IMG/VR virus record: IMGVR_UViG_3300047548_001368 | Coordinates: 1 to 28,042 of that record | Direction: 5' to 3' (one strand) | From: a virus | DNA: 28,042 nt | Part shown: in pieces, positions 6,730-23,493 of the stretch | How the letters are laid out: each line of letters starts with the position of its first letter | Position numbering within the stretch: the stretch's first letter is position 1 | Position numbers and translations under genes: made by a program | Notes under the pieces: generated by a model | Databases searched by the model: none | Seen by the model: the letters and a program-made list of their open reading frames with translations, nothing else | Told to the model about the DNA's origin: nothing

Positions 6730-6766
6730 AGAGTCCCTGGATTTGTGGTGAATCGCGAGGGACACT
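6730..6766 (-). promoter_or_regulatory. Leader hairpin of the first GIY-YIG gene
   Basis: On the minus strand AGTGTCCCT (6766-6758) pairs with AGGGACTCT (6738-6730) with a single T-T mismatch at the third pair; inside, GATT pairs with AATC. AATAAAAGTG lies just upstream and the start codon 23 bases downstream. The same fold with different paired bases precedes the GIY-YIG gene at 23435. Confidence 0.75.
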
Positions 6767-6770
6767 TTTA

Positions 6771-6799
6771 TTGACATGAAATATCTTTCATGCTATACT
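6771..6799 (+). promoter_or_regulatory. sigma70 promoter with palindrome in its spacer
   Basis: TTGACA (6771-6776), a 17-bp spacer and TATACT (6794-6799). The spacer holds the perfect inverted repeat CATGAAA-TATC-TTTCATG (6775-6792), a likely operator for a dimeric repressor. It drives the small-protein operon 6832-7420. Confidence 0.8.
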
Positions 6800-6807
6800 T
6801 ATTTATA
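6800..6807 (-). promoter_or_regulatory. T4-late-like TATAAATA box
   Basis: The minus strand reads TATAAATA, identical to the T4 late consensus, about 93 bases upstream of the GIY-YIG start at 6707. A second AATAAAAG box lies nearer the leader hairpin. Either could start the endonuclease transcript late in infection. Confidence 0.5.
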
Positions 6808-6831
6808 CCGAAACGAATATTTGTCGATAAA

Positions 6832-7020
6832 ATGAGCGAAGTGGACATGAGTTATGTGTATATCACACCAGATGATATTAAACCTGAATTTGGAGCCTGG
6901 AGTAATCGCAAAGAATGGTGTGAAAAGAATTGTAATGGCAAATGGAATTACCAACTACAAGGTAAGTTCGTTTTCAATGACGAAAAAGATTATGTGTTGT
7001 TTATGTTGAGGTGGTCGTGA
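6832..7020 (+). CDS. Small protein of the C-terminal LRW family
   Basis: A 62-residue (from ATG 6832) or 57-residue (from ATG 6847) protein ending in FVFNDEKDYVLFMLRWS. That tail recurs in five other small proteins of this window. The N-terminal part is aromatic and charged with two Cys (EWCEKNC). The in-frame ATG at 6790 lies in the promoter spacer and cannot be used from it. The codons for LRW (TTGAGGTGG) form the ribosome-binding site of the next gene, whose GTG start overlaps the stop. Function unknown. Confidence 0.75.
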   Translation: MSEVDMSYVYITPDDIKPEFGAWSNRKEWCEKNCNGKWNYQLQGKFVFNDEKDYVLFMLRWS

Positions 7021-7235
7021 TCAAAAGACAATACCATTATGGCAACGAATATGGCGACGGCATCAATTCACAATACTTTAGAAATTTTCTAAACTCACTC
7101 GACGGTGAGCGTAGTATGTGGGAAATACTTGAGGAATACGGTGCCCGAAAAGCAAAGTGTAAAAAGAAATGGTGTTATAATGTTAAATGGCACGATGAAC
7201 AAAAGTATATGATGTTTATGTTGAGGTGGTTATGA
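7017..7235 (+). CDS. Small protein of the C-terminal LRW family (paralog)
   Basis: A 72-residue protein beginning with GTG at 7017, which overlaps the previous stop as GTGA and follows GAGGTGG. It ends in WHDEQKYMMFMLRWL, a clear paralog of the tail of the preceding protein (DEKDYVLFMLRWS). The middle contains a basic KKKW block. The last codons again read TTGAGGTGG and serve as ribosome-binding site for the next gene. It probably arose by tandem duplication followed by divergence of the N-terminal part. Confidence 0.75.
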   Translation: MIKRQYHYGNEYGDGINSQYFRNFLNSLDGERSMWEILEEYGARKAKCKKKWCYNVKWHDEQKYMMFMLRWL

Positions 7236-7420
7236 AAGACGAAAGTCACTTGCCAGTAAGTGAGCAGAGCCTGGTATTCAGGCTCCGCAAACGAGCAGAG
7301 ATACGTAGGCAGATACAGGATCGTAAGTCAGTGCAAGAAGGTCGACCGGACCGTATTGCAGACTTGTTGGAAGAAGCTGCTGCTCGCATAGAGCAGTTAG
7401 AAGGTGGCGCCACGCCTTGA
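7232..7420 (+). CDS. Small helical protein
   Basis: A 62-residue protein starting at an ATGA overlap, with GAGGTGG upstream. Residues about 14-60 are strongly helical with regular Arg/Glu/Leu spacing, ending in RIADLLEEAAARIEQL, a short coiled-coil pattern common in small phage proteins of unknown function. Last gene of the operon; the 98 bases after it hold no gene and separate it from the convergent glycosyltransferase-like gene. Confidence 0.72.
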   Translation: MKDESHLPVSEQSLVFRLRKRAEIRRQIQDRKSVQEGRPDRIADLLEEAAARIEQLEGGATP

Positions 7421-7518
7421 CCTCTGTGAGAGCATGTTGAAGTAGCAGGCGGGTGAAAGGTAGGCGTTAGACGTCGAGCGGCAAGAACCAAATGCTTGCA
7501 CCGTATTCGTAAGCGGTT

Positions 7519-8682
7519 TTATTTTAATAATTTTTTTACGCCTGCCAAATCGACTTTATGCAATGGCAGTTCTCTACCGTCGACCCGACCGTTGTTCCAA
7601 AGTCGAATTGCGGTTTCGAAATTGTCAACGAGCTCGTTGACAATACGCTTTTTAAAATCCCCGTAGAAATGCTCGAAGTTGTGCTCTAGCACAGGCATCA
7701 TTTCTTGATGCATGTCTTGCAGATCACTGCGACTCATTGAACATAAACGTTGAGTTTGATCAACAATGGCTTGTAGTCGTTGATCGGGATCCTGGATGTT
7801 GTCGTAACTTTCGTCAATCCAGCGATCAAATGTTTCGAATCCGTAACTCTTGAGATATGCTAGATTACCAGGTGCTGCTGCTAACATAAACGGACGCTGT
7901 GCTACAATAGGTTTGAAAATCTTCTCAGTGAGATGCAGCTTATCGTAGTAAAACACTGTTTCTGTCACGATATGCCAGAATCCTGACTCCCATAATTCAA
8001 TCTCCTGATTTCCAAAATCAGCACTGATATTTCCTGTGCTATTTTTTCGATCTAGTACCAATGCATTCTTGATATTTTTTTGAATCAACTTGCAGGCTGA
8101 TTCACTGAGTTTGGTATGCGGATTTGCAATCTCTTGTTGCCAGGTTCCGTATTCAGTTTGCTCTAGCTGCAAACTTACATGCCCTTGATCTAATAGATTG
8201 CAATGAGCAAGACGTGCTACTAAGTTAAGGCGATAGCTGCGATCATTGACATAAAGTCGATTCAATGATAGATATGGTCGTGACCATTCTGAGTTGTGTT
8301 TGACATATTGTCCGTCTCTATACCAATCCAATGCAGCAAAGCCGTGAAAAAAGTAATACCAATCCTGATAATTCTGCTGCCTACAGACATCTTTTTTTAG
8401 TTTGCTAATTTCGCTGTTGGCCAACAGTTGGCATTTTTTACTTGAGGTAAATGTTGATAGATTTTTAACACTGTCGATGTAAATAGGTTCTTGATCAAAA
8501 TAATAACAAGAATTTTCTAGGCTAGACGCTCTCTGAATCCTATACAGACTGGTTGCGTATCTTCCTCGACACAGATCTTTGAGGTCAACTGACCCGAACC
8601 GCAAGAACATTACGTCTTGTAAGTTCAGTGGTCCTAGTAGGTGTCGGTAGAGGATGTAGTAAAAATTTTCGATAGAAAACAT
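7519..8682 (-). CDS. Glycosyltransferase-like protein (paralog of the gene at 27206)
   Basis: A 387-residue cytoplasmic protein. It shares ordered blocks with the truncated gene at 27206-28042: FDQEPIYID, DWYYFFHGFAALDWYR and, near the C terminus, ETVFYYDKLHLTEKIFKPIVAQRPFMLAAAP. The last block (T-E-K-I/T-F-K-x-I-x-x-x-x-P-F) resembles the nucleotide-sugar-binding C-terminal part of GT-B-type fucosyltransferase-like enzymes. I infer transfer of a sugar to DNA, a virion protein or a surface glycan; the substrate cannot be read from sequence. No Shine-Dalgarno is visible; TTTAAATA (8701-8694 on the minus strand) lies 12 bases before the ATG and may be a late promoter. Confidence 0.7.
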   Translation of the reverse strand: MFSIENFYYILYRHLLGPLNLQDVMFLRFGSVDLKDLCRGRYATSLYRIQRASSLENSCYYFDQEPIYIDSVKNLSTFTSSKKCQLLANSEISKLKKDVCRQQNYQDWYYFFHGFAALDWYRDGQYVKHNSEWSRPYLSLNRLYVNDRSYRLNLVARLAHCNLLDQGHVSLQLEQTEYGTWQQEIANPHTKLSESACKLIQKNIKNALVLDRKNSTGNISADFGNQEIELWESGFWHIVTETVFYYDKLHLTEKIFKPIVAQRPFMLAAAPGNLAYLKSYGFETFDRWIDESYDNIQDPDQRLQAIVDQTQRLCSMSRSDLQDMHQEMMPVLEHNFEHFYGDFKKRIVNELVDNFETAIRLWNNGRVDGRELPLHKVDLAGVKKLLK

Positions 8683-8703
8683 AGCAGATTCTGTATTTAA
8701 ACG

Positions 8704-8782
8704 GTAATACCCAAGTACTACATTTAATACCCGACCATTGTGTCGGGTTTCTCTTGGCCGGAAATTCGCGTTTTGCTATAAT
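8704..8782 (+). promoter_or_regulatory. GTAATAC motif, terminator-like hairpin and sigma70 promoter
   Basis: GTAATAC (8704-8710) and AGTACTAC (8714-8721) are followed by hairpin CCCGAC/GTCGGG (8730-8735/8742-8747) with TTT, then -35 TTGGCC (8754-8759), a 17-bp spacer and TATAAT (8777-8782). The hairpin may insulate the promoter from read-through. Confidence 0.85.
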
Positions 8783-8811
8783 ACATTTACTGAAGCAACA
8801 AGGAGTCCAAA

Positions 8812-8988
8812 TTGAGCCAAGTTAAAGAACTAGTCCTGGACATCGAGTACCTGCTGGAGCAAGGCCGGAGCTTTGCCGAAGTAGCTCGTGAACTGGAAAT
8901 TCCTATCAATTTTGTGATTGAAGCTGCTGAAGTAATTGAGCAAAGCCAATTGGAAGACTGTAGCCCTTACGCAACAATCAACAGTTGA
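8812..8988 (+). CDS. Small HTH-like protein, TTG start
   Basis: A 58-residue protein starting at TTG 8812, six bases after AAGGAG (8800-8805). Residues 20-41 (SFAEVARELEIPINFVIEAA) have the helix-turn-helix pattern of short phage DNA-binding proteins, and the C terminus is polar. The predicted transcript starts near 8789. The stop codon TGA (8986-8988) lies inside the -35 box of the next promoter. It may regulate that promoter; this is inference from position. Confidence 0.78.
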   Translation: MSQVKELVLDIEYLLEQGRSFAEVARELEIPINFVIEAAEVIEQSQLEDCSPYATINS

Positions 8989-9013
8989 CCACAAATTCCC
9001 AATCCGTTACAAT
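8985..9013 (+). promoter_or_regulatory. sigma70 promoter of the AAA+ gene, overlapping a stop codon
   Basis: TTGACC (8985-8990), a 17-bp spacer and TACAAT (9008-9013). The TGA inside TTGACC is the stop codon of the preceding gene, the same arrangement as at 13954. Confidence 0.75.
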
Positions 9014-9055
9014 AACGACTTAACAACATTTTTCAACCCCCTCCGAAAGGTAATT

Positions 9056-10138
9056 ATGTCTGATTCACGCACCGTCACTTCTACCCAGGCTCGCAAGTCC
9101 ATCCTGCAAGCCTTCAAGGTTCAACGTCCCATCTTCCTGTGGGGCCCTCCTGGTATCGGCAAATCCGAACTGGTTGAAGGTATTACCAAAGAACTCGGCG
9201 GTGTCATGTATGACCTGCGCCTTGGCCAGATGGAACCCACTGACATTCGTGGTATTCCGTTCTACAACAAGGACACTGGTATGATGGACTGGGCGGCTCC
9301 TGTGGACCTGCCCGACGAAGCAACTGCTAGCCAGTATCCCATTGTCGTCTTGTTCTTGGACGAAATGAACTCGGCCCCTGCCTCAGTGCAATCGGCTGCC
9401 TACCAGCTGATCCTGAACCGCCGAATTGGCAAGTACAAACTGCCCAACAACGTTGTCATGGTTGCCGCAGGTAACCGTGAGTCGGACAAAGGTGTTACTT
9501 TCCGCATGCCGACTCCGCTGGCAAACCGCTTCATCCACCAAGAGATGAAGGTTGATTTCCCCAGCTGGCAAGAGTGGGCTGTGCAGAACAAGATTCACAA
9601 GGACGTGGTTGGTTACTTGAGCTTTGCCAAGCAAGACCTCTACGACTTTGACGCCAAGTCCGCAAGCCGTGCGTTCGCTACTCCGCGTAGCTGGAGCTTC
9701 GTGTCGCAACTGCTGGACGACCAAGTGGAAGACGACACCCTGGTTAACCTGATTGCAGGTACTGTGGGCGAAGGTCTTGCTGTGAAGTTCATGGCACACC
9801 GCAAGGTTGCCAGCAAGATGCCGAACCCTGTGGATATCCTCAAGGGCAAGGTCAAGGACTTGCAGGTCAAAGAAGTTTCGGCTATGTACTCGCTGGTTAT
9901 CAGCATGTGCTATGAGCTCAAGGGTGCGGTTGAGAACAAGACCGCAGACAAGGACTTCCACGAGATGGCCGATAACTTCCTGGGCTACATGATGAAGAAC
10001 TTCGAGACTGAGCTGGTTGTGATGGGCGCTCGTATTGCTCTTACCACATACGATCTGCCGTTCCTGCCTACCAAGCTCAAGAACTTCGACGAGTTCCATA
10101 GCCGTTATGGCAAGTACATCCTGCAAGCTAGTGCTTGA
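9056..10138 (+). CDS. MoxR/CobS-like AAA+ ATPase
   Basis: A 360-residue AAA+ ATPase of the MoxR branch. Walker A GPPGIGKSE is at 30-38, Walker B VVLFLDEMN at about 97-105, sensor 1 VAAGN at 136-140 and the arginine-finger region PLANRF at 154-159. The C-terminal 190 residues form a helical domain. ATG 9056 follows GAAAGG; an open frame upstream overlaps the small HTH gene and the promoter and is not used. MoxR ATPases act with VWA-domain proteins to mature or remodel complexes, or, as CobS with CobT, in cobalt insertion; related AAA+ genes in marine T4-like phages are often called cobS. The VWA partner is at 14009. A strong terminator follows. Confidence 0.92.
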   Translation: MSDSRTVTSTQARKSILQAFKVQRPIFLWGPPGIGKSELVEGITKELGGVMYDLRLGQMEPTDIRGIPFYNKDTGMMDWAAPVDLPDEATASQYPIVVLFLDEMNSAPASVQSAAYQLILNRRIGKYKLPNNVVMVAAGNRESDKGVTFRMPTPLANRFIHQEMKVDFPSWQEWAVQNKIHKDVVGYLSFAKQDLYDFDAKSASRAFATPRSWSFVSQLLDDQVEDDTLVNLIAGTVGEGLAVKFMAHRKVASKMPNPVDILKGKVKDLQVKEVSAMYSLVISMCYELKGAVENKTADKDFHEMADNFLGYMMKNFETELVVMGARIALTTYDLPFLPTKLKNFDEFHSRYGKYILQASA

Positions 10139-10151
10139 TAGGTGAGGGGGT

Positions 10152-10178
10152 GGGGCAGTGGCAACACTGCCCCTTTTT
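10152..10178 (+). terminator. Rho-independent terminator
   Basis: GGGGCAGTG, loop GCAA, CACTGCCCC and TTTTT form a perfect 9-bp stem with T-run, starting 13 bases after the AAA+ gene stop. Confidence 0.95.
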
Positions 10179-10180
10179 CT

Positions 10181-10510
10181 ATGAAGTACAAGGTAACTAA
10201 ACTCGATGGGCGTTATTCCTACAGTGCCAGTTTTTGCTGGTGCCTAGAGTTTACTCGCAGTGAATGGAAGGGCTCGGGTGTGCTGGATTTTGATCAAGCA
10301 CGGCGTTGGATGAATGAGACCTGGGGCTGGAGTCAAGACGTTGAAACCATGAACGACATGGCCCGAGAACTCAACAAAAAATTTCAACCCTGGGACGACA
10401 TAATTAATCGGCATTGGGCCTACTCTATCAAGTATCGAGACTATCGCATATATCTCAAAAGCGATGCTGAACTGAGTTGGTTTCAGCTAGCTCACCCAAA
10501 TGAAATCTAA
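10181..10510 (+). CDS. Small aromatic-rich protein (distant LRW-family member)
   Basis: A 109-residue protein rich in Trp, Tyr and Arg. The first ATG after the terminator is at 10181, only two bases past its T-run, with no Shine-Dalgarno, so expression depends on read-through or an unseen signal. The C terminus YLKSDAELSWFQLAHPN is a divergent version of the tail shared by the small paralogs at 6832, 7017, 20221 and 20535. Overlaps the next gene by 11 bases. Function unknown. Confidence 0.65.
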   Translation: MKYKVTKLDGRYSYSASFCWCLEFTRSEWKGSGVLDFDQARRWMNETWGWSQDVETMNDMARELNKKFQPWDDIINRHWAYSIKYRDYRIYLKSDAELSWFQLAHPNEI

Positions 10511-10781
10511 AGTCATTGTCAAAAAGAACTTGATTATCTTTCGCAACCGCGGAGAATGGTCAGATATCTATGCTCGGATTCTCAAAGAATTTGGCATGGG
10601 CATGGCTGTGCGTACACGACTGCGTCGCGAACTAGGGTTTACATATCGCACTTACCAAGAGTGGATTGTGTTTGATCGCACAGGGGATCGCGAACGCCGG
10701 TATTGCGAAGAACAAGTACACTTAGATTTTTACAACGAAGCCGCGCAGAGTTGGTTCCAATTAAAATATCTAAATTTGTAA
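10500..10781 (+). CDS. Small basic protein (distant LRW-family member)
   Basis: A 93-residue basic protein with an Arg-rich centre (RTRLRRELGFTYRTYQEW). It ends in LDFYNEAAQSWFQLKYLNL, close to the end of the preceding protein (DAELSWFQL), so the two form a tandem paralogous pair like 6832/7017 and 20221/20535. No ribosome-binding site of its own; start overlaps the previous gene. Function unknown. Confidence 0.65.
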   Translation: MKSKVIVKKNLIIFRNRGEWSDIYARILKEFGMGMAVRTRLRRELGFTYRTYQEWIVFDRTGDRERRYCEEQVHLDFYNEAAQSWFQLKYLNL

Positions 10782-10790
10782 ATTTTTAGA

Positions 10791-10798
10791 CATAAATA
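10791..10798 (+). promoter_or_regulatory. Late-promoter-like CATAAATA box
   Basis: CATAAATA fits the NATAAATA late consensus described for T4-like cyanophages and lies 28 bases upstream of the PP-loop gene start. No sigma70-type -35 is visible. Confidence 0.5.
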
Positions 10799-10826
10799 AT
10801 AGTCTTCATTTAGCTTCACCTCTAGT

Positions 10827-12029
10827 ATGTTTACAAACCACAAACCCGTGGATACCACGGCTCCGTTGTCTTTCTTTTCTCACCAAGGATACTATGTAGT
10901 TGGCAAAGATATTTTTCGTAACAAGGTATACGCTATGCAAGAAGCGACCAGAAAACGAATGTCGCCCGAGGAAATGCGTTGGGTGTTTAACGACGAAACA
11001 TTTAAAAAATTAGACTGGAAAAACTCATCTGGTGTATCGTTAACTGAACTGTATAGGATGCGGGCACAGCAACTCCGTGAAAAATATAATTATTTGATTT
11101 TGACGTTCAGTGGCGGTGGCGACAGCACCAACGTGCTAGATTCCTTCATTCTCAATAACATCCACCTTGACGAAGTAGTAGTGACTTGGGCAAGATCGCA
11201 AACTGCAGGCAGATATACGCCTAGTCTGAACACTGATGCTACGAATTACAATAGCGAATGGGACTTTCTTGTAGAACCAAAATTAAAATGGCTAGAAAAG
11301 GTTGCGCCAAAGACAAAAATTACTATTCTAGATAATTTCGAAGACATGCGCCCCGAAGAACCTTATGACGATTTTATGTCACTGACTGGAAAACATGGCT
11401 GGCAGTCAATCAAGAGATGGGCAGGGGTCGACCAGTTACTAATGTCACGGCAAGAGCAACACAAGAATTGTGCAGTGATAATGGGTGTTAACCCTCCACT
11501 TGTGTGTCGACTTAAAAGACATTTTTTGGCTTTTTTTGCCGATGGCCAAACAACTACGTACATGTCTGATTATACGCCACGTGGCGAAAGAAAAATAGAA
11601 TTTTTTTATTGGACTCCAGACATGCCCGAAATTGTCAAAGAACAATCTCATGCACTTTTAAAAAATCTAAAGTTGAATCCACAGTTTCAGAATCTGATTC
11701 AAGAAATTCAAATCAACAAATCTGAAACCACAACCAAACTTACCAAAAGACAACGTGAAGATCAACGTCGTTGGATTAAGTCTGTTCTATATCCAACATA
11801 TGACTATCAATCTCTTCAAGTTGATAAAAACAGCAGACCTATCGGTCGATCGGAATGGTTTTCGTGGTTGTTTAACAACCCACACTCAGAAGAAATTGTT
11901 CAGCCACATTTTAGTGCTGTAACGTCTCATCAGAATATCATTGATCCACGGTTTTTTGTATCAGAAAACGAAGAAGTGTGCGATTACCGTCCTTATTTTT
12001 CAAAATTTTATTACATAGGAGATTTGTAA
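10827..12029 (+). CDS. PP-loop ATPase of unknown substrate
   Basis: A 400-residue protein with a PP-loop pyrophosphatase motif LTFSGGGDST (92-101) after a hydrophobic strand, as in enzymes that adenylate a carbonyl or amide before amidation, thiolation or similar chemistry (asparagine synthase, QueC, PAPS reductase, TilS). A roughly 90-residue N-terminal region precedes it and about 300 residues follow, which does not fit QueC or TilS architecture I know. No signal peptide or membrane segment. It follows the late-like CATAAATA box and has no Shine-Dalgarno; the next gene begins one base after its stop. It may modify a nucleobase or a small molecule. Confidence 0.72.
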   Translation: MFTNHKPVDTTAPLSFFSHQGYYVVGKDIFRNKVYAMQEATRKRMSPEEMRWVFNDETFKKLDWKNSSGVSLTELYRMRAQQLREKYNYLILTFSGGGDSTNVLDSFILNNIHLDEVVVTWARSQTAGRYTPSLNTDATNYNSEWDFLVEPKLKWLEKVAPKTKITILDNFEDMRPEEPYDDFMSLTGKHGWQSIKRWAGVDQLLMSRQEQHKNCAVIMGVNPPLVCRLKRHFLAFFADGQTTTYMSDYTPRGERKIEFFYWTPDMPEIVKEQSHALLKNLKLNPQFQNLIQEIQINKSETTTKLTKRQREDQRRWIKSVLYPTYDYQSLQVDKNSRPIGRSEWFSWLFNNPHSEEIVQPHFSAVTSHQNIIDPRFFVSENEEVCDYRPYFSKFYYIGDL

Positions 12030-12030
12030 A

Positions 12031-13041
12031 ATGTTTCATTTTTTAAGGAGAACCAAGTTGAAACTTATTAATTTATTAAAATCATTTGCTATAGTACTAG
12101 GTATTTCAGCAAGTTCAGCTCTATTGCCAGCGGCTGCTAGCCAACCTTGGCCCGCCAGGCCAATTCAGATCATTGCACCAATCGATGCCGGGACTTTGCA
12201 AGATACTCTCGCTAGAAAGCTGGCAACTGATTTGTCAGCTCGGTGGAATCAAACTGTGACCGTGGTCAACCAGCCCGGAGCAGCAGGCGCACTTGGCACA
12301 AAGACCGTTGCTGACTCTCCGGCCGACGGATATACCATTGGACTAATTAGTGCAACCTTTACTGGTACTATGGCTACCAGAAACAACTTGCCATTCAGCA
12401 GAGATAAACTCACTGGTGTAGTAAAATTTGCCACACAAGAGTTTATAATCTTTGCTAACAAAAATGCACCGTTTGACAACGTTCAACAGATGGTTGCCTT
12501 TGCTCGCGCCAACCCGGGTAAACTGGACTACGCAACACCCGGAGCAGGTTCTTATGTGAACATAACCATGGAGCACTTGGCCAAAACACAAGATTTACAA
12601 TTTGTTCACGTGCCGTATCGCAATCTAATGCAAGCAGCACCTGACGTAGTCGGTGGTCGACTCCAGATGATGATTACCAGTGCAAATAGCACCTTGGACG
12701 GATTGGTCTCCAAAGGAGACATGAAGATTATCGGGGGACTAGGAAAAACTCCAAAGCACAAAGGCACAGCAATTCAATCGTTGTCCTTGGTATCGCCCTC
12801 GGTGCATGCAAATGGTTATTATGGAATCGTTGTTCCTGCTGGTACACCTGCCCCGGTAGTAGAAAAGATCCACAAGGATGTAATTGACATTGTCTCTGCT
12901 CCTGCATTCCAACAAGCGGTTATTACACTAGGTGGCCTCCCTGCACCAGCTAGTGTGCCAGGCGAGTTCAATCGCTGGATCGACGACGAAGTTGAAAGAC
13001 TTAAAAAAATCATTGTGCAAGCCAACGTAAAGATTGAGTAA
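12031..13041 (+). CDS. TctC/Bug-family periplasmic substrate-binding protein
   Basis: A 336-residue extracytoplasmic binding protein of the Bug/TctC family, which captures carboxylates or similar solutes for tripartite tricarboxylate transporters. After a signal peptide (hydrophobic core about 15-34, AAAS near 34-37) the mature part begins WPARPIQIIAP, then VNQPGAAGALGTK..ADSPADGYTIG, YATPGAGSYVN, VPYRN, GGRLQMM and GYYGIVVPAGTPAPVV, all family hallmarks. ATG 12031 follows AGGAG (12017-12021); a TTG at 12058 with AAGGAG would give a neater signal peptide and cannot be excluded. No transporter membrane genes are nearby. It is a likely auxiliary gene taken from a betaproteobacterial host. A terminator follows. 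Confidence 0.93.
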   Translation: MFHFLRRTKLKLINLLKSFAIVLGISASSALLPAAASQPWPARPIQIIAPIDAGTLQDTLARKLATDLSARWNQTVTVVNQPGAAGALGTKTVADSPADGYTIGLISATFTGTMATRNNLPFSRDKLTGVVKFATQEFIIFANKNAPFDNVQQMVAFARANPGKLDYATPGAGSYVNITMEHLAKTQDLQFVHVPYRNLMQAAPDVVGGRLQMMITSANSTLDGLVSKGDMKIIGGLGKTPKHKGTAIQSLSLVSPSVHANGYYGIVVPAGTPAPVVEKIHKDVIDIVSAPAFQQAVITLGGLPAPASVPGEFNRWIDDEVERLKKIIVQANVKIE

Positions 13042-13054
13042 GTACAAAGTATAC

Positions 13055-13081
13055 AAAAAGCTCGCTTAGGCGGGCTTTTTT
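13055..13081 (+). terminator. Rho-independent terminator
   Basis: AAAAA-GCTCGC, loop TTAG, GCGGGC-TTTTTT (one G-T pair) begins 14 bases after the binding-protein stop and closes the PP-loop/TctC unit. Confidence 0.92.
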
Positions 13082-13149
13082 GTGGCCGCACTACACAGAT
13101 ACACAAATCATCTAAAGAATTGCTGTAAAACGCCCGAAACCCAAAAAAT

Positions 13150-13206
13150 GTATACTTTTTTAGTACTACTTTTTTGGTTGACCCAAAATCGCCAATTTGC
13201 TATAAT
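13150..13206 (+). promoter_or_regulatory. GTATAC/AGTACTAC motif plus strong sigma70 promoter
   Basis: GTATAC (13150-13155) and AGTACTAC (13162-13169) followed by TTTTTTGG, -35 TTGACC (13178-13183), a 17-bp spacer and TATAAT (13201-13206). From the T-run to the -10 it is nearly identical to the promoter at 4324. Confidence 0.9.
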
Positions 13207-13237
13207 ATACACATAGAGCAGCAAAAAGGAGCACTTG

Positions 13238-13525: not shown

Positions 13526-13526
13526 C

Positions 13527-16065: not shown

Positions 16066-16066
16066 T

Positions 16067-16864: not shown

Positions 16865-16875
16865 AGGAAACAATC

Positions 16876-17106
16876 ATGCCCACAGTTTACACTGAAGTTG
16901 AAGTAGACGTAGATCTTGACAGCTTTGACGACGATGATCTTATTGAAGAAATCGAGCGTCGTGGGCTTGACCTCAACACCAAATACATCAGCGGTGACGA
17001 AATGCGTGAGCTGTTGACTCGGGTCTGGCAGAATCGCAGAGAAGGCAAGGACTATCAACGCGACTTAGATCAACTGATTTGGTATGGTATCGGAAAGATT
17101 GTATGA
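16876..17106 (+). CDS. Small acidic protein
   Basis: A 76-residue strongly acidic protein (TEVEVDVDLDSFDDDDLIEE), preceded by AAAGGAAAC. The N-terminal pattern VDVDLDDFDxxDLIEELE is shared by short proteins in many phages and bacteria, without known function. Its stop overlaps the next start as ATGA. Confidence 0.78.
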   Translation: MPTVYTEVEVDVDLDSFDDDDLIEEIERRGLDLNTKYISGDEMRELLTRVWQNRREGKDYQRDLDQLIWYGIGKIV

Positions 17107-17252
17107 GCTGGGAAGATATTAGAGACGCGGCTAGCTATTTTATCTACGGTGCTGTGTTAGGATACTTCTGGCATCCTATTTGGGCAATTATCAAGAAAAT
17201 TGTACATGAAGCAAAGGTGGCAAAAAATGAGTGGCGAAAACCCAACCCGTGA
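17103..17252 (+). CDS. Small membrane-associated protein (49 aa)
   Basis: A 49-residue protein starting at ATGA. Residues 10-33 (AASYFIYGAVLGYFWHPIWA) form an aromatic hydrophobic helix, followed by a basic amphipathic tail. Overlaps the next gene by 26 bases. Function unknown. Confidence 0.65.
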   Translation: MSWEDIRDAASYFIYGAVLGYFWHPIWAIIKKIVHEAKVAKNEWRKPNP

Positions 17253-17424
17253 TCGATTTGATCTCGAACAAGAAATCCTCGAGTGCTGGCGAGTCACCGA
17301 GGATATCAAGCTTTTTACAGAGCAAGGTGCTGACATCACTGTGTTGAGTCAGTACTACGAACAAAAGTTTCAAAGACTCTGGAATACGTTTGAACAACTA
17401 ACAACTGAAAGAAAAATTACATGA
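17227..17424 (+). CDS. Small helical protein (65 aa)
   Basis: A 65-residue polar, helical protein with AAGGTGG (17213-17219) upstream of ATG 17227. It is acidic in the first half and lacks membrane segments. Overlaps both neighbours (26 bases and ATGA). No family recognised. Confidence 0.7.
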   Translation: MSGENPTRDRFDLEQEILECWRVTEDIKLFTEQGADITVLSQYYEQKFQRLWNTFEQLTTERKIT

Positions 17425-17597
17425 GCAAGTTTCGTGAATGGTACGTTCAGCACCAAGATGCTATTACTTGGTTCCTTGTTGGCTTGCTGACATCGGGCAT
17501 GATAGAACAGTTGGCCAAGGCTAACTATGGCCTAGCTGTACTGTCAGCAGTGCTGATCTGGGCCAACTACAAAATGCTTGATTACAAGATAAAGTAA
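17421..17597 (+). CDS. Small two-helix membrane protein (58 aa)
   Basis: A 58-residue protein starting at ATGA. Hydrophobic segments lie at about residues 15-28 (ITWFLVGLLTSGMI) and 37-49 (GLAVLSAVLIWAN), giving a membrane hairpin. Its stop overlaps the next start as TAATG. Function unknown. Confidence 0.7.
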   Translation: MSKFREWYVQHQDAITWFLVGLLTSGMIEQLAKANYGLAVLSAVLIWANYKMLDYKIK

Positions 17598-17836
17598 TGG
17601 GCAACCAAACTGATTACTTCAACCGGATTGGCTACAGGCCCACTTACGAAATCGGCGACCGCGTGATTGGCAAATGGAACAAGATTCCATTTGTAGGTAC
17701 CGTAGGCAACGACACAGTGATCAGTGAGCTGGAAGGGCCGCGCATTAGCGTACACTTGGACCTTCCTATCAAATACAAAGATCAAATACGCACAGTGATC
17801 TTTGTGCAACACCGAGATGTAAAGCCATATCGATGA
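17597..17836 (+). CDS. Small beta-rich (SH3/KOW-like) protein
   Basis: A 79-residue protein beginning at TAATG overlap. The pattern YEIGDRVIGKWNKIPFVGTV ... ISVHLDLPI ... VIFVQHRDVKP has the alternating strands of a small barrel such as SH3 or KOW. It recurs in T4-like environmental phages without known role. Overlaps next gene as ATGA. Confidence 0.75.
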   Translation: MGNQTDYFNRIGYRPTYEIGDRVIGKWNKIPFVGTVGNDTVISELEGPRISVHLDLPIKYKDQIRTVIFVQHRDVKPYR

Positions 17837-18069
17837 ACAACGAACGTGATCAAGTAATCCTAGAGATGTGCGTTTCATATCGCCCGGATTACCATGTTGT
17901 CAAACTGCCCACTGACCCTCCTTGGCTAGTGGGCATGACTGATTTTGAGCGTGAAGGATTGTGGCGCACCATGGCTGACATCTACGATAATCAAATAAAA
18001 CCAAAAACAAACAATGAAAAAACAACTACTAGAAAACGTAAAAACAGACACCAGCGGAAAGTGGGTTAG
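17833..18069 (+). CDS. Small protein with basic tail
   Basis: A 78-residue protein. The first 58 residues are ordered-looking (VVKLPTDPPWLVGMTDFERE, then LWRTMADIYDNQ) and the last 20 are Lys/Arg/Thr-rich (RKRKNRHQRKVG), a tail that could contact nucleic acid. The tail is encoded in the 56-base overlap with the next gene, so it may be an extension that arose by stop loss. Confidence 0.68.
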   Translation: MNNERDQVILEMCVSYRPDYHVVKLPTDPPWLVGMTDFEREGLWRTMADIYDNQIKPKTNNEKTTTRKRKNRHQRKVG

Positions 18070-18235
18070 CATCGAGAACGTCGAAGCTCTGGTCGAATCT
18101 GTGGTAGCAGAAGCTATTTCGGCTGTGGAAGGCACTGGCAAGCAATGTGCATACACCACTCATGATTTGATTGCTGTAAACTGCACCATTGATCAATGTG
18201 TGCAATCACTAAAAACTCATTTTGGGTCGGCATAA
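18014..18235 (+). CDS. Small acidic protein overlapping its neighbour
   Basis: A 73-residue protein (WVSIENVEALVESVVAEA, then two Cys in TIDQCVQSL). No ribosome-binding site is seen before ATG 18014, which sits 56 bases inside the upstream gene; coupling is likely. Sequence quality looks coding. Function unknown. Last gene of the long operon; AT-rich late-like sequence follows. Confidence 0.68.
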   Translation: MKKQLLENVKTDTSGKWVSIENVEALVESVVAEAISAVEGTGKQCAYTTHDLIAVNCTIDQCVQSLKTHFGSA

Positions 18236-18259
18236 AAATACAGCGCAGATATATTCATC

Positions 18260-18266
18260 TTAAATA
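18260..18266 (+). promoter_or_regulatory. Late-like TTAAATA box five bases before an ATG
   Basis: TTAAATA followed by TTTGC and ATG (18272). The same TAAATATTTG-N-ATG arrangement occurs at 23513-23526. If used like a T4 late promoter, transcription would begin at about the start codon. No Shine-Dalgarno precedes the gene. Confidence 0.4.
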
Positions 18267-18271
18267 TTTGC

Positions 18272-18475
18272 ATGGAAAACGCTCAACTTACCCTTACCGA
18301 CATTGTATCAGTAAAGAATCTCATTGAAGCCGCAAGCACTAGAGGTGCATTCAAGGCTCATGAATTAAAGTCTGTCGGCGAACTGTACGAGAAGATTGCT
18401 CGCTTCATCGAAGTTAGCATGCCTCAAGTACAAGAGCCACAGACCGACCAAGCACAAGGAGAAACAAATGCTTAA
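18272..18475 (+). CDS. Small T4-like conserved-type protein
   Basis: A 67-residue protein: LTLTDIVSVKNLIEAASTRG then FKAHELKSVGELYEKIARF, an HTH-like or helical bundle pattern that I have seen in short proteins of T4-like marine phages; the tail is Gln/Pro-rich. It lacks a Shine-Dalgarno and follows the TTAAATA box at once. It overlaps the next gene by 8 bases. Function unknown. Confidence 0.75.
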   Translation: MENAQLTLTDIVSVKNLIEAASTRGAFKAHELKSVGELYEKIARFIEVSMPQVQEPQTDQAQGETNA

Positions 18476-19223
18476 ACATATTGGACGTCATGGCGATCGC
18501 AAGGTTGCTATCTTGTTTAGAGAAGTACCCGGTGAAGATCACATGTGCCTTGTGATTTATCCCGAAACATTGCCCACTCACATCCATGATTCAATCATGA
18601 AGACTCTAGAGAGTCCAGTGGGCCAGCAGGCCACCAACTTGGCAGATGCTCTGCATCGCAACTTGCTGCCCGATGGTCGTGTGCAATTAGAAGCACTGCA
18701 CCGCGAAGGCATGATCAAGAAGATCCCTACTAACCAAGTTATCGTTACGCCCAACGCTACTAGCTCAGTCAAGCTAGACGAACTCAACCGCATTGTGCGC
18801 GAAATGGAAATGGGCGACGATGCTCGCAAGCGTTTGGAGCAGCTAGACCAAAGCAAAGGCTTGGTTGATCCTGCTGTGAAGCGTGAACAGGAACGTGAAT
18901 TCAAGCGCCAGCGTCTGGAGCAAGAAGCAGCTCAACGTGCTCGTGGCGAAATGCCGCAGCCAGTGACTGCCGACGGTGCATTGGATGACAAAAACTTGGC
19001 AACCACTATGTTGAATCAAGCCAAGAAAATGGAAGTTGAAGCCAAAGGTCTTATCGCGGAAGCAGCCCGCATGAAGAAAGAAGCTCAACGTATGTACCCA
19101 GGTGTTAATCTTGACGGCTTTACTGAGCCAGCACCTGTTGCCACTCCAGCTGCTACTGAACCCGTGAAACGCAGCCGTGGTCGCCCTAAAACAAAGGCAG
19201 TGACTCCGGATGCAGTTCAATGA
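18468..19223 (+). CDS. Conserved T4-like phage protein of unknown function
   Basis: A 251-residue protein. The N-terminal half (HIGRHGDRKVAILFREVPGE, then LPTHIHDSIMKTLESPVGQ and a VIVTPNATSSVKLDELNRI block) looks conserved among T4-like marine phages as I recall; the second half is a charged coiled coil (about 105-210) and the end is Pro/Ala/Arg-rich with KRSRGRPKTK, an AT-hook-like basic motif. ATG 18468 follows AAGGAG (18456-18461). Overlaps the next gene by 14 bases. Possibly nucleoprotein or assembly related; not assigned. Confidence 0.72.
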   Translation: MLKHIGRHGDRKVAILFREVPGEDHMCLVIYPETLPTHIHDSIMKTLESPVGQQATNLADALHRNLLPDGRVQLEALHREGMIKKIPTNQVIVTPNATSSVKLDELNRIVREMEMGDDARKRLEQLDQSKGLVDPAVKREQEREFKRQRLEQEAAQRARGEMPQPVTADGALDDKNLATTMLNQAKKMEVEAKGLIAEAARMKKEAQRMYPGVNLDGFTEPAPVATPAATEPVKRSRGRPKTKAVTPDAVQ

Positions 19224-19512
19224 AGAAGCTCTGAGCAAGTGGGAAAAACTGCTGAGCGAAGTTAACAAGACAGAAGTACCACTTGAATGCATTAAAAAAG
19301 TTATTGTGAAGCTGTCGGGTAAACGACAGCACACAATCAACTTACATACGCTACGAAAGCAAGGTCTAGACATTGAAGAAATCGAAGTTATCTTGACCAG
19401 GAAACTGGCCGAGCTCGGAGATGATATTCGTGACCTAGACTTTGTGGTTGATATCGTAGCTGTAGCAGAAATTGTTCAACCCGAAACCGATAAACTACTC
19501 AACGGACTATAA
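19210..19512 (+). CDS. Conserved small T4-like protein
   Basis: A 100-residue protein: WEKLLSEVNKTEVPLECIKK, then INLHTLRKQGLDIEEIEVIL and a C-terminal VVDIVAVAEIVQPETDKLL. Charged alpha-helical profile with no Cys-metal or membrane motif. It overlaps the 251-residue gene and its stop TAA is within the TATAAATA box at 19508. Its consistent pairing with the upstream gene suggests shared function, unknown. Confidence 0.72.
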   Translation: MQFNEEALSKWEKLLSEVNKTEVPLECIKKVIVKLSGKRQHTINLHTLRKQGLDIEEIEVILTRKLAELGDDIRDLDFVVDIVAVAEIVQPETDKLLNGL

Positions 19513-19515
19513 ATA
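19508..19515 (+). promoter_or_regulatory. TATAAATA box at the thyX start
   Basis: An exact T4 late consensus, but only one base before the ATG of thyX, so a transcript from it would start inside the gene. It may be coincidental or serve an unrecognised start. Confidence 0.25.
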
Positions 19516-19516
19516 T

Positions 19517-20203
19517 ATGGATGTTAAACTTGTCTCCTATTCACAGCCAACCGACGAATTTGCAGACCGAGGCATTGACAACGTACAGGAACTCATTGCC
19601 TATTGCGCCCGCGTCTCCAACCCGGCCAACCAATTCAATACCGAAACATCAGATCGACTCATCCGGTACCTTATTAAACACCAACACTGGAGTCCTCTTG
19701 AAATGGTGTCGGCATGTATGGAAATTGTTACTACCCGGGACATCGCTCGTCAGATCCTCCGTCACAGAAGTTTCAGTTTCCAAGAGTTCAGTCAGCGATA
19801 TGCAGACCCCACCGCCGAACTCGAAAGTGCGTTTGTATTACGAGACGCAAGATTCCAGGACACCAAGAATCGACAAAACAGCATAGACATCGATGCCGAA
19901 GATGAAGCCCAACGTCTGTTGGCCATTGAGTGGGAACGTGCCCAAAAGCGTGTGTTGTATGCTGTGGAAAAGGAATACAAGTGGGCCATTGCCAACGGTA
20001 TTGCCAAAGAACAAGCCCGCGCTGTGTTGCCCGAAGGACTCACTGTCTCTCGCATGTATATGAACGGTACACTGCGTAGCTGGATTCACTTTATCGAACT
20101 GCGTAGTGCCAACGGTACACAAAAAGAGCATCAGCAGATTGCACTGGAATGTGCCCGAGTCATCAGTAAAATCTTTCCAATGGCCAATGACCTTGTAGCA
20201 TAA
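19517..20203 (+). CDS. thyX: Flavin-dependent thymidylate synthase ThyX
   Basis: A 228-residue ThyX, which methylates dUMP to dTMP with methylene-tetrahydrofolate, FAD and NADPH. The signature RHRSFSFQEFSQRY (RHRxxSxxExSxRY, about residues 80-93) is intact; NQFNTETSDRLIRYLIKHQHWSPLE before it and PEGLTVSRMYMNGTLRSWIHFIELR near the end are further family blocks. The length fits bacterial and phage ThyX. ATG 19517 gives MDVKLVSYSQ; the start lies a few bases after the preceding stop. Supplies thymidylate for phage DNA synthesis. Confidence 0.96.
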   Translation: MDVKLVSYSQPTDEFADRGIDNVQELIAYCARVSNPANQFNTETSDRLIRYLIKHQHWSPLEMVSACMEIVTTRDIARQILRHRSFSFQEFSQRYADPTAELESAFVLRDARFQDTKNRQNSIDIDAEDEAQRLLAIEWERAQKRVLYAVEKEYKWAIANGIAKEQARAVLPEGLTVSRMYMNGTLRSWIHFIELRSANGTQKEHQQIALECARVISKIFPMANDLVA

Positions 20204-20215
20204 TGATGCTATAAT
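20187..20215 (+). promoter_or_regulatory. sigma70-like promoter at the end of thyX
   Basis: ATGACC (20187-20192), a 17-bp spacer and TATAAT (20210-20215). TAGCAT-AATG-ATGCTA (20196-20211) is an inverted repeat overlapping the -10, and TAGCAT recurs at 20217. Predicted start (about 20222) coincides with the ATG of the next gene, so that mRNA would be leaderless, or the promoter mainly serves 20535 onward. Confidence 0.55.
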
Positions 20216-20220
20216 GTAGC

Positions 20221-20556
20221 ATGGCTATTGTACGAAACCATCAAGCAGAATATTCGCACTGGCGTCCCGAGGAGGTAAGAATCATCGATGACGTACCAGT
20301 GCGTTTTTCTGACGTATGTGTTCATGAGTTCATACTCAGCGACGTAGACGATGTAGAAATTTATGCGGCTGCTCCAATTTGGGAATGGCAGCAAAGCGCC
20401 GCAGGTTGTTGGGTCATGGAGCATGCTATCAACAAGCCTTATTGGATACAGCACATGGACACAATAGGATATAGATACAAAATACGCATCATGGCTAGAC
20501 TCAGTGACAAGGATCAAACATTCTGGAGGCTCAAATGGGCTGGACGCAACACGTAG
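20221..20556 (+). CDS. Small protein of the LRW family
   Basis: A 111-residue acidic/aromatic protein ending IMARLSDKDQTFWRLKWAG, a variant of the D-x-x-x-x-F-x-L-(R/K)-W tail found in 6832 and 7017. The codons for FWR (TTCTGGAGG) carry the GGAGG that serves the next gene, whose ATG overlaps it by 22 bases. No Shine-Dalgarno of its own is possible within the predicted transcript. Function unknown. Confidence 0.7.
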   Translation: MAIVRNHQAEYSHWRPEEVRIIDDVPVRFSDVCVHEFILSDVDDVEIYAAAPIWEWQQSAAGCWVMEHAINKPYWIQHMDTIGYRYKIRIMARLSDKDQTFWRLKWAGRNT

Positions 20557-20798
20557 AGTATATAGACGCCGAAGATGTTGATATCCCAAGGGTGATCAAG
20601 AAGCAGGTATGGAACGGCAAAGAATTTATACCTGTTGTTATGTACAGACGCGATGGGGTGCTTAACGATGCAAAGAAGACATGGTTATTCGAGCAGTTTG
20701 GCGCACGTGGGCCTCGTTGGGACTACAGCTTAACTGGTAATTTTTATGTAATGGACGAACAAGTTTATGCTTGGTTCAACTTAAAATGGGGAAAGTAA
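20535..20798 (+). CDS. Small protein of the LRW family (paralog)
   Basis: An 87-residue protein starting at ATG 20535 five bases after GGAGG. The C terminus FYVMDEQVYAWFNLKWGK matches DEQKYMMFMLRWL of the protein at 7017. The preceding GPRWDYSLTGNF is also similar to GKWNYQLQGKFVF of the protein at 6832, so homology covers at least the last 30 residues. The next gene, an epimerase, begins directly after its stop. Confidence 0.75.
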   Translation: MGWTQHVEYIDAEDVDIPRVIKKQVWNGKEFIPVVMYRRDGVLNDAKKTWLFEQFGARGPRWDYSLTGNFYVMDEQVYAWFNLKWGK

Positions 20799-21776
20799 AT
20801 GAGTAAGTTTTTAATCACAGGCGGGCATGGACTCATCGGTCACAATGTTGTGGCTCGACTACAAGAACGCGACGAAGAAGTTGTAGTGGTAGATACACAC
20901 ACTACCTATGGTATTATTCCGCAAAGCGAAGTAGACTACCTAATGAAGGAACGTCTAGCCAAGCTGCGACATCACACTTGGTATCCTAATTCTATAACTG
21001 AAGCAGATGCCATGGAGCGTATTATTTCAGAAGAAAAGCCCAGCACTATTATCCACATGGCCAGCTTTCCTAGACAAAAAGTTGTCAATGCCGACCCGCG
21101 CCATGGCAGCGAAGTCATGATGACAGGGTTGATCAACTTGCTCGAGAGTGCCAAATCGCACGGTGTTGAGCGTTTTGTGTACATCAGTTCTAGCATGGTT
21201 TACGGTGACTTTGAAGATCAAGTGCTAGAGGATGATGATTGTAATCCGCAGGGGCAATACGGCATCATGAAGCTTGCAGGAGAACACCTTGTCAAAGATT
21301 ACGCTCGCCGAACTGGCATGGAATACGTTATCATCCGGCCTTCGGCTGTTTATGGTCCGCTGGATGTTGAAGATCGCGTGGTTGCAAAATTTATGCTTAC
21401 CGCAATGCGTGGTGGAACCCTCAAGGTTAATGGCGCCGGGGAGACGCTGGACTTTACGTATGTGGATGACGCTGCGGCTGGCATTGTTGCAGCATCAACT
21501 CGCATCACGAGCAAGAACAATACTTACAATATTACTAAATCTCATTCAGTCACCCTGCTCCAAGCCGCCGAAATGGTGGTTGATATTGTGGGCAAAGGCA
21601 GCATCGATGTCCGCGACAAAGACGCAGACTTCCCCAGCCGAGGCGCCTTAAATATTGATCGTGCTAGGACCATCTTGGGCTACGACCCCAAGGTTGATGT
21701 GGAAGAAGGCTTCCGCGAGTACTACAAATGGTTGAGCACCAGCGAGTATTGGAAATGCCAACTACCACAGGACTAA
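20799..21776 (+). CDS. NAD-dependent epimerase/dehydratase (extended SDR)
   Basis: A 325-residue extended short-chain dehydrogenase acting on a nucleotide sugar. The Rossmann motif TGGHGLIGHN (7-16) is the TGxxGxxG type; ISSSMVYG supplies the Ser, and YGIMK the catalytic Tyr-x-x-x-Lys; IRPSAVYGP follows as in UDP-sugar 4-epimerases and decarboxylases. ATG 20799 follows GGGGAAAG. The downstream aminotransferase overlaps its end, suggesting sequential steps toward an amino sugar. The exact product (epimerised, dehydrated or decarboxylated sugar) cannot be told. Confidence 0.9.
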   Translation: MSKFLITGGHGLIGHNVVARLQERDEEVVVVDTHTTYGIIPQSEVDYLMKERLAKLRHHTWYPNSITEADAMERIISEEKPSTIIHMASFPRQKVVNADPRHGSEVMMTGLINLLESAKSHGVERFVYISSSMVYGDFEDQVLEDDDCNPQGQYGIMKLAGEHLVKDYARRTGMEYVIIRPSAVYGPLDVEDRVVAKFMLTAMRGGTLKVNGAGETLDFTYVDDAAAGIVAASTRITSKNNTYNITKSHSVTLLQAAEMVVDIVGKGSIDVRDKDADFPSRGALNIDRARTILGYDPKVDVEEGFREYYKWLSTSEYWKCQLPQD

Positions 21777-22861
21777 CAATCCCTTTTACTGGTCTTCGAA
21801 AACAGTACAACTCACTGCGTACTGAAATCCTGGACGTCACTGACGAAGTGTTGCGTTCAGGACAACTTATGAACGGCAACAACACTGCCGAACTCGAACA
21901 CTGGCTTGCTAAAAAGAATCGTGTAAAGTATGCTGTAACTTGTCACTCAGGCACGCAGGCGCTAGAAATCATTGCAGAATATTGGGCTACTCAACTAACT
22001 CTGCATCCTAAAGTATTCATGCCTAGCTTTACATACGTAGCTACAGCCAATGCGTTTATACGTGCTGGCTGGGACATACATTTCATTGACACCGATGCCT
22101 ATGGCATCATGGACGACACAAAGTTTCCCCAAGGCGTGGACTATGATGCTGTGGTCCTTGTGGGTCTGTACGGCAAGTCAATCACACACTCTGCTCATGT
22201 ACGTAGTTGGAATACCTGGGTAGCTACCAACACCATTGTAATTGAAGATGCTGCCCAGCACTGGCTGGCCAACGATTGTACTCGTATCGGCGATGCTGCT
22301 GCTATCAGTTTTGATCCTATGAAGAACTTGGCTTGCTACGGCAATGGTGGTGCTGTGGTCACAGACAGCTTGGACTTGGCTGAGTTTGCTAGAGCATGGC
22401 GAGACAATGGCAAGCCTAATCACAACTATGCTGGCACGAACAGCCGTATGAGTGAAATAGACTGTGCTACTTTGCTAGTCAAAGCACAGTACCTTGACCG
22501 CTGGCAGGCACGTAGGGCACAAATATCCGATTACTGGCGAGAGCGTTTTGCCAGCAATAACAAAATTCGCTGCTTGATTGACGAAAGCAATGCACACAAT
22601 CACGCACATCACAAGTTTGTGATTGACATTGACAGCAGAGATTCTGTGCGTCAAAAACTAGCCGATCGCAAGATTGAAACCCGCGTACACTACGAGCGTC
22701 CTATTCATGAGATTGATGTGTATCGCCAATGGCCTGGTCCTGATATGTTGGCTGTGAGTTCTAGTCTGGCACGCCGTGTACTGAGCTTGCCACTGTATCC
22801 AGAACTCACTGACCTAGAAGTCGAATACATATCCGACCAAGTTATTTCTTGCGTTTCTTAA
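21755..22861 (+). CDS. DegT/DnrJ/EryC1/StrS-type aminotransferase
   Basis: A 368-residue PLP-dependent aminotransferase of the sugar aminotransferase family. IPFTGLRKQY at the start, VTCHSGTQALEI (phosphate-binding G-T-x-A), MPSFTYVATANAF, VIEDAAQHW and the lysine block ISFDPMKNLACYGNGGAVVT are family hallmarks; K in PMKNL is the predicted Schiff-base lysine. ATG 21755 or the earlier in-frame ATG 21728 are possible; 21755 puts the first conserved block at the expected place. It overlaps the epimerase end by 22 bases and its own last 20 bases overlap the convergent GIY-YIG gene. Likely makes an aminated sugar nucleotide. Confidence 0.9.
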   Translation: MPTTTGLTIPFTGLRKQYNSLRTEILDVTDEVLRSGQLMNGNNTAELEHWLAKKNRVKYAVTCHSGTQALEIIAEYWATQLTLHPKVFMPSFTYVATANAFIRAGWDIHFIDTDAYGIMDDTKFPQGVDYDAVVLVGLYGKSITHSAHVRSWNTWVATNTIVIEDAAQHWLANDCTRIGDAAAISFDPMKNLACYGNGGAVVTDSLDLAEFARAWRDNGKPNHNYAGTNSRMSEIDCATLLVKAQYLDRWQARRAQISDYWRERFASNNKIRCLIDESNAHNHAHHKFVIDIDSRDSVRQKLADRKIETRVHYERPIHEIDVYRQWPGPDMLAVSSSLARRVLSLPLYPELTDLEVEYISDQVISCVS

Positions 22862-23435
22862 GAGATATTTTAGCCTTAGTTTCGTCAGACAACTTTTTTC
22901 CTAATTTAGATTGCCGCATTTTTTCTCGCGTCTGTTCACTAATAGGAGGACGATTTTGTGCAGCCTGTTTATACTTGGCCGATACTTCCGGTAACCGGTT
23001 TTTATGTGCTTCGCTCATTTTACGGCGAGTTTCTTCTGACACAGGCTTTCTTCTTTTGTGTGCTTCAGCAAGTTTTTGACGAGTTTCTTCGGAGTGCTTT
23101 TTTCCAGTATTCCAAGGCACAGAACCTAATTTTGATTGACTAATCTTTTGTTTTACATTGCTTGGCATGATCCAACCGGAGTTGCTTTCCCCACCATCGG
23201 TTAAATTAATCAAGCAACCAGTTTTTTGATCTTTACGCCCATACCAACGAATGTATCTTCGTTCTAGTGCTAGGGCGCCTACCTCGGTTAGGTTGCATTC
23301 TAAAAATACAATGCGGTTTATATCTTTTGGAAAACTTCTGTGATTTTTAGCATAGGCTCTGTTATCTTTGCCCTTGCCAATGTAATAAGGTGTGCCATCT
23401 TTACGCAGATATGCGTAAACGTAGTAAATATTCAT
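22842..23435 (-). CDS. GIY-YIG homing endonuclease with NUMOD3 repeats
   Basis: A 197-residue free-standing endonuclease. MNIYYVYAYLRKDGTPYYIG contains the GIY-YIG core (YYVY ... YYIG), R (RYIRWYGRKD) and E residues follow, and at least five NUMOD3-like DNA-binding modules lie downstream, including SEETRQKLAEAHKRRKP and SEETRRKMSEAHKN. AAAGGA (23450-23445 on the minus strand) precedes the ATG. It invades the 3' end of the aminotransferase gene by 20 bases, as the other GIY-YIG gene invades the RNA ligase. Leader hairpin and late-like promoter match the first copy, though the proteins are diverged. Confidence 0.92.
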   Translation of the reverse strand: MNIYYVYAYLRKDGTPYYIGKGKDNRAYAKNHRSFPKDINRIVFLECNLTEVGALALERRYIRWYGRKDQKTGCLINLTDGGESNSGWIMPSNVKQKISQSKLGSVPWNTGKKHSEETRQKLAEAHKRRKPVSEETRRKMSEAHKNRLPEVSAKYKQAAQNRPPISEQTREKMRQSKLGKKLSDETKAKISLKKRKK

Positions 23436-23457
23436 GCTGTGATTCCTTTACAATCAT

Positions 23458-23493
23458 AGAGTAGTTGGGAACGCCAATTCCGCGAACTACACT
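23458..23493 (-). promoter_or_regulatory. Leader hairpin of the second GIY-YIG gene
   Basis: On the minus strand AGTGTAGTT (23493-23485) pairs with AACTACTCT (23466-23458), with one T-T mismatch at the third pair, exactly as in the leader at 6730-6766 but with different variable bases; an inner stem GGAA/TTCC replaces GATT/AATC. Conserved unpaired elements are AATAAAAGTG and CGCG. Confidence 0.75.

Follow-up and report, generated by a model that had tools for sequence, protein, structure and literature searches.

The window, i.e. the whole stretch of 28,042 nucleotides (nt) of the virus record IMGVR_UViG_3300047548_001368 of IMG/VR (positions 1 to 28,042), carries two homing nuclease genes on its minus strand, each preceded by a leader with two hairpins (P1 and P2). 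Homing nuclease gene 1 (6015..6707, minus strand) encodes 230 amino acids (aa) from a conserved start, which is the ATG at 6707-6705 and not the upstream ATG at 6728, and homing nuclease gene 2 (22842..23435, minus strand) encodes 197 aa. Both proteins matched NUMOD3 only in Pfam and homing endonucleases in PHROGs; their assignment to GIY-YIG is a reading of the motif YYVY...YYIGKG by eye. Both genes are oriented opposite to their neighbours.

The box AATAAAAGTG was found on the minus strand at 6772-6763 in leader 1 and at 23499-23490 in leader 2. Hairpin P1 occupies 6733..6763 in leader 1 (minus strand; GTCCCT/AGGGAC, a CGC/C internal loop and GATT/AATC) and 23461..23490 in leader 2 (minus strand; GTAGTT/AACTAC, a CGC/C internal loop and GGAA/TTCC). 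An earlier note on this DNA had described both leaders at these sites, with CCCT/AGGG against AGTT/AACT in the outer stem, GATT/AATC against GGAA/TTCC in the inner stem and the same T-T mismatch, all of which was reproduced. That note had placed the hairpin upstream of the ribosome-binding site, which does not hold as the whole picture, because the interval from ACTCT to the start codon has a second hairpin, P2, which stops one base short of that codon and contains the Shine-Dalgarno site within its loop and 3' arm. Hairpin P2 spans 6709..6731 in leader 1 (minus strand; CTAATGCT...AGC(A)ATCAG, Shine-Dalgarno AAGAAG) and 23437..23459 in leader 2 (minus strand; CTATGATT...AATCACAG, Shine-Dalgarno AAAGGA in the loop and 3' arm).

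A TAAATA box at 23496..23501 (minus strand), 5 nt before the opening G of P1, is the putative sense late promoter of gene 2. Leader 1 itself has TCAATA and not TAAATA at 6774-6769, and ATAAATA occurs upstream of it (6800..6806, minus strand). Putative antisense late promoters were located on the plus strand by motif and spacing in leader 1 (TAAATA, 6697..6702), and likewise in leader 2 (TAAATA, 23425..23430, which reads TATTTA in the gene). The antisense RNAs predicted from them would cover 6708..6768 and 23436..23495 (plus strand), both with an uncertain 3' end. Folding of each window leader alone was moderate only (z from -1.05 to -2.66), so that the window by itself could not decide on the fold, and an Rfam search with the window leaders gave no match.

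A scan of IMG/VR contigs with the pattern AATAAAAGTGT..CGCG..ACTCT, leaving the stem letters free, matched at least 119 viral stretches (the sources are metagenome contigs, and all IMG/VR counts are of matches listed and thus lower bounds), in agreement with the wide family upstream of homing nucleases that the earlier note had expected. An open reading frame (ORF) started about 21-25 nt past the pattern in nearly all matched stretches. The stem letters varied yet paired (AGTT/AACT, CAGT/ACTG, CTGT/ACAG, CCCT/AGGG, TCCT/AGGA, CGAT/ATCG, GAGC/GCTC and more). Across 257 Gb of contigs from bacteria and archaea, this pattern gave only 22 matches, which lacked TA ahead of the box and did not pair consistently. 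A covariance model was used to recruit copies outside the fixed pattern, as the earlier note had proposed, and further copies with preserved pairing were found; a second scan fixed the P1 core only. Curation, in which TA[TC]TTA was required, resulted in 185 copies. Most P1 copies were gathered with parts of P1 fixed, and invariance there is by design; conclusions on P2 and TATTTA are independent of the patterns, except for ACTCT in the first set and TA[TC]TTA in the curation of the 185 copies. One phage contig carried 13 leader copies and another one 12. A blastn search with the consensus against cultured phages gave no match. A divergent leader was present in Pseudoalteromonas phage vB_Psh_XG4 (L356:516-606), in which P1 is GCTAAT/ATTAGC, the CGC/C internal loop is retained, and a GAATT/AATTC hairpin resembles P2. 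The element had no match in Rfam, and no description of it was found in the literature, with subscription journals mostly outside the search; its novelty is thus not proven by the literature search.

In P1, 732 of the 740 cells of the 185 curated copies were Watson-Crick. Pairing in an 86-sequence alignment was 95.8% of the cells, against 81.1% after shuffling and 19-50% after sliding by 1-3 columns, and 169 cells were changed on both sides, against 34.7 after shuffling. In a 109-sequence set, which was fitted to the model and leans towards it, 97.1% of the cells were paired and double-changed cells were 225 against 44. The two window leaders are therefore real copies of one structured element, far beyond chance when taken with their relatives, and the compensatory changes that had been attributed to selection on a fold were confirmed. 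Of the features that the two leaders share, two were not strictly conserved among copies gathered with these parts left free: the AAAAG box, and the lower GTG/CTC part, which includes the T-T mismatch. In the scan with the P1 core only, AAAAG was variable and [AC]TAAATA was kept. Most of the lower GTG/CTC part would lie outside the late transcript, by the start site calibrated below.

Hairpin P2 also covaried. Its stem had at least 3 pairs in 86 of 88 linkers, and the observed mean was reached by none of 300 chimera controls. The CT of ACTCT doubles as the base of P2, and in outer P2 the bases C52-U53-A54 stand opposite the CAG directly before the start codon; the outermost pair changed from C-G to U-A in 5 copies (TTTA with CAAC). 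A closing helix between TAAATA and TATTTA was considered and rejected: it was weak (mean probability 0.22), its flanking bases did not covary, and both TCAATA copies were uncompensated. A small antisense ORF was rejected as well, as no frame was kept and loop lengths differed by single bases in the alignments.

The late promoter of T4 is TATAAATA and that of cyanophage is NATAAATA (PMC2984593). Upstream of 1067 ORFs, [AC]TAAATA was biased to the sense strand (214 vs. 86), and in the fetched viral contigs it stood exactly 5 nt before the ATG in 82 ORFs, against 2 on the reverse strand. This peak in spacing fits a transcript start at the sixth base and calibrates the start site; by the same spacing, late mRNAs without a leader may be frequent in these phages. 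The window has such boxes 5 nt before ATG, for example at 19509 and 23512 (plus strand). Among the 185 copies, the sense TAAATA stood 5 nt before the G of P1 in 171, and the reversed TAAATA stood 5 nt before the G preceding P2', the antisense form of P2, in 148. By sequence position, a box like that of T4 late promoters thus occurs at a fixed distance upstream of these genes, and the control of transcript start that the earlier note had suggested is supported by this geometry.

The reversed box, TATTTA, was present within the gene start in 90 of 91 copies in all three nuclease reading frames (63:14:14), with a few TACTTA variants in the scan with the P1 core only, and it kept its distance to CAGC and not to the reading frame. 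The earlier note missed this box, which belongs to the element. Six relatives from cultured phages showed no TATTTA near the start, and a leaderless nuclease gene (L210) showed none either. TAAATA was missing from two copies, window leader 1 and L129, which had ATAAATA 33-34 nt upstream instead. Two promoters and an antisense RNA are strongly suggested by these positions. A switch between read-through and late transcripts was rejected, as predicted access to the start site was equal in both RNAs. TAAATA as a target-site duplication was suggested at a site next to a terminase-small-subunit-like gene and was not general. A near-consensus sigma-70 promoter (TTGACA-17-TATACT) begins at the edge of leader 1 on the opposite strand (6771-6799, plus strand), and TTGAC boxes 10-19 nt upstream on the opposite strand were enriched among other leaders too.

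The P2 cells of the 185 copies were 1168 Watson-Crick, 301 A-C in the sense strand, 2 G-U in the sense strand, and 9 other. A sense A-C is an antisense G-U, and P2 was therefore 99% paired in the antisense RNA and 79% in the sense RNA. One P2 position is an invariant A-C (184 cells); the remainder, about 117 A-C against 2 G-U, was distributed over several positions. In P1, A-C and G-U cells were 7 and 1 in the 185 copies; by types they were 9 and 1 leaving out one misparsed copy, or 10 and 3 including it, in a weaker check whose parser kept 44 copies only. Folded alone, P2 had -5.25 kcal/mol in the antisense direction against -2.49 kcal/mol in the sense direction, and base-shuffled segments differed by -0.13 on average. 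With no structure given, RNAalifold predicted 13 pairs in the sense direction (P1 only, -12.6 kcal/mol) and 18 pairs in the antisense direction (P1 and P2, -15.9 kcal/mol). Stem lengths in the P2 linkers alone, counted with Watson-Crick plus G-U or with Watson-Crick plus A-C pairs, did not separate the strands; outer P2 pairs are missing from those linkers. Selection on pairing probably acts on the antisense strand. The earlier note had left a choice between a fold in RNA and an inverted repeat in DNA; RNA is favoured, with the antisense strand as its probable carrier.

Control from the sense 5' untranslated region only, in which the late mRNA would open with P1 for protection of its 5' end or for protein binding, P2 would tune access to the Shine-Dalgarno site, and TATTTA would be an AU-rich start context, agrees with the sense start exactly at the base of P1, with the Shine-Dalgarno site inside P2, with T4 precedents (PMC2988022), and with the retention of P1 and P2 without TATTTA in L356. 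The excess of A-C over G-U cells, the weakness of P2 in the sense RNA, the failure of RNAalifold to find P2 in that direction, and the spacing of TATTTA to CAGC instead of to the reading frame make it rather improbable.

The ORFs behind the leader were homing nucleases of several folds (NUMOD3/GIY-YIG, HNH, HNH_3, HNH_5, TnsA-like, DUF7487 and DUF559), and the tie to GIY-YIG genes made in the earlier note was too narrow. Compared with empty sites, the unit has its left boundary at the leader, in line with the earlier suggestion that the leader marks one of its ends, and its right boundary close to the stop codon; right ends had no shared hairpin or motif on inspection. At the terminase-small-subunit-like site the leader was present in 6 of 80 fetched contigs and absent from most, and the gene annotated as terminase small subunit in cyanophage S-N03 is immediately preceded by a related nuclease. 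Two contigs with a shared leader plan have a GIY-YIG (L160) and an HNH (L161) nuclease at the same site before the terminase-small-subunit-like gene. Their genes (L160:1770-2504 and L161:1736-2504) differ in the catalytic domain and are identical over at least 250 bases at the 3' end, beyond which 396 of 400 bases agree, which points to a swap of the catalytic domain between the leader and the DNA-binding 3' end. The leaderless nuclease gene of L210 (1900-2500), at the terminase-side site, lies directly behind a native CTAAATA box.

An element acting as DNA, with a cruciform or single-stranded DNA hairpins as the end of the mobile unit or as a recombination spot for cassette exchange, would account for the leader at the left edge of the unit, for domain exchange beside it, and for mostly strict Watson-Crick pairing. 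It would leave unexplained the bias to A-C over G-U relative to the gene direction, the position of the Shine-Dalgarno site, and two promoter boxes at start-site distance, and the right ends have nothing matching the leader; it is regarded as very improbable.

The number of T in the 8 nt after P1', the antisense form of P1, was 5 in AAAGT copies and mostly 3-5 in others; a terminator scanner found no intrinsic terminator, and no conserved T-tract followed the hairpin. Insulation, in which P1' and a T-rich tail would terminate transcripts opposing the nuclease gene and separate it from neighbouring transcription, fits CTTTTATTTA after P1' in many copies and the orientation of both window nuclease genes, and is the least credible alternative, as unbiased copies keep TAAATA and not the T-tract, P2' and the antisense promoter are not needed for it, and other units are co-directional with their neighbours.

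Under the preferred reading, the leader is a compact 5' cassette for late expression; it would sit at the left end of a mobile unit that consists of the leader and a homing nuclease gene and occurs in environmental T4-like phages. The two TAAATA boxes of this cassette would be convergent T4-type late promoters. Transcription from the sense box would begin at the base of P1 and yield the nuclease mRNA; from the antisense box it would begin at the nucleotide that immediately precedes the start codon and yield an RNA of ~60 nt. This RNA would fold into P2' and P1' and be complementary to the mRNA leader over its full length, the Shine-Dalgarno site included. Late in infection it would pair with the leader and limit translation of the nuclease, as RNA-OUT does on the IS10 transposase. 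The cassette could work before any nuclease, because such control needs promoters and RNA only, and it would be the common 5' end during exchange of nuclease domains. At the level of sequence, the structure and its covariation are established by the alignments; repression of nuclease translation by the antisense RNA is less certain, and the model as a whole is considered probable rather than assured. Several points weigh against it. The leaders are related and recombining, and the cell counts are not independent events; L356, from a cultured phage, keeps P1 and P2 yet lacks TATTTA, and part of the structure may serve the sense strand; and the predicted antisense RNA has no strong terminator, its T-rich tail being variable in unbiased copies.

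A wider proposal is doubtful: the leaders might make up a new family of antisense RNAs, portable among unrelated homing nucleases and perhaps acting in trans, with the nuclease genes of one genome restraining each other and stem and loop variants forming separate groups. Action in trans is suggested by the up to 13 similar copies in one phage contig. If the cassette model is true, homing nucleases of different folds would share one conserved RNA control system, present in hundreds of contigs of environmental phages and absent from Rfam. It would suggest how a free-standing homing gene remains expressible at each new site and how catalytic domains can be swapped, make control of nuclease dose directly testable, and give a marker for mapping homing-gene units.

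RNA-OUT of IS10 and CopA of plasmid R1 are short structured cis-antisense RNAs. The antisense RNA predicted here resembles them in being short and structured and in its complementarity to the region where translation of an element-mobilising gene starts. Of the features of RNA-OUT, a promoter of its own on the opposite strand may have a counterpart in the reversed TAAATA, kept in three frames with the spacing of the sense box, and selection on a structured antisense RNA is seen in the asymmetry of A-C and G-U and the antisense result of RNAalifold. Unlike RNA-OUT and CopA, the element has other sequence and promoters, both promoters would be of phage late type, and many unrelated nucleases are served. 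In HEARO and the end structures of IS200-IS605, a structured nucleic acid is tied to a mobile nuclease gene; unlike these, the leader has no paired second end, transposase or Rfam match.

Homing genes of T4 are held back by RNA structure and late promoters, and leader hairpins with late promoters occur in the T4 group in I-TevI, I-TevII, I-TevIII, segB, Aeh1 mobE and Aeromonas phage 25 seg43 (PMC2988022). The leaders share with these a hairpin, a nearby (here putative) late promoter, a Shine-Dalgarno site in or next to the hairpin, and a homing nuclease (PMC2988022). The T4-group hairpins were described gene by gene; here many nuclease families have one covarying two-hairpin leader in common, in which an inward-facing late-promoter box is conserved and pairing is directed to the antisense strand. 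The Shine-Dalgarno site falls in the loop and 3' arm of P2, but P2 is weak in the sense RNA; the predicted late start would leave P1 and P2 intact and would not lie inside or after a hairpin to free the ribosome-binding site, as in T4. An antisense RNA to a homing endonuclease gene was demonstrated experimentally in cyanophage S-PM2 (CfrI; PMC2984593, PMC5931967). As with CfrI, the antisense RNA, here predicted, is directed to a homing gene in a T4-like phage; CfrI differs in its size (~225 nt), in being antisense to the homing gene and psbA, and in not being described as a portable conserved leader. Through T4 RNA structure and late promoters and CfrI of S-PM2, restraint of homing genes by RNA has precedent.

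Elsewhere in the window, 24193-27207 (minus strand) encodes a protein of 1004 aa in which a repeat of the type SWxPDPxxPPYIYVFGNQW occurs about ten times; no convincing family was found for this protein. A gene for a TctC-type receptor of tripartite tricarboxylate transporters (12031-13041, plus strand; Pfam PF03401, E 2e-48) is an unusual viral cargo.

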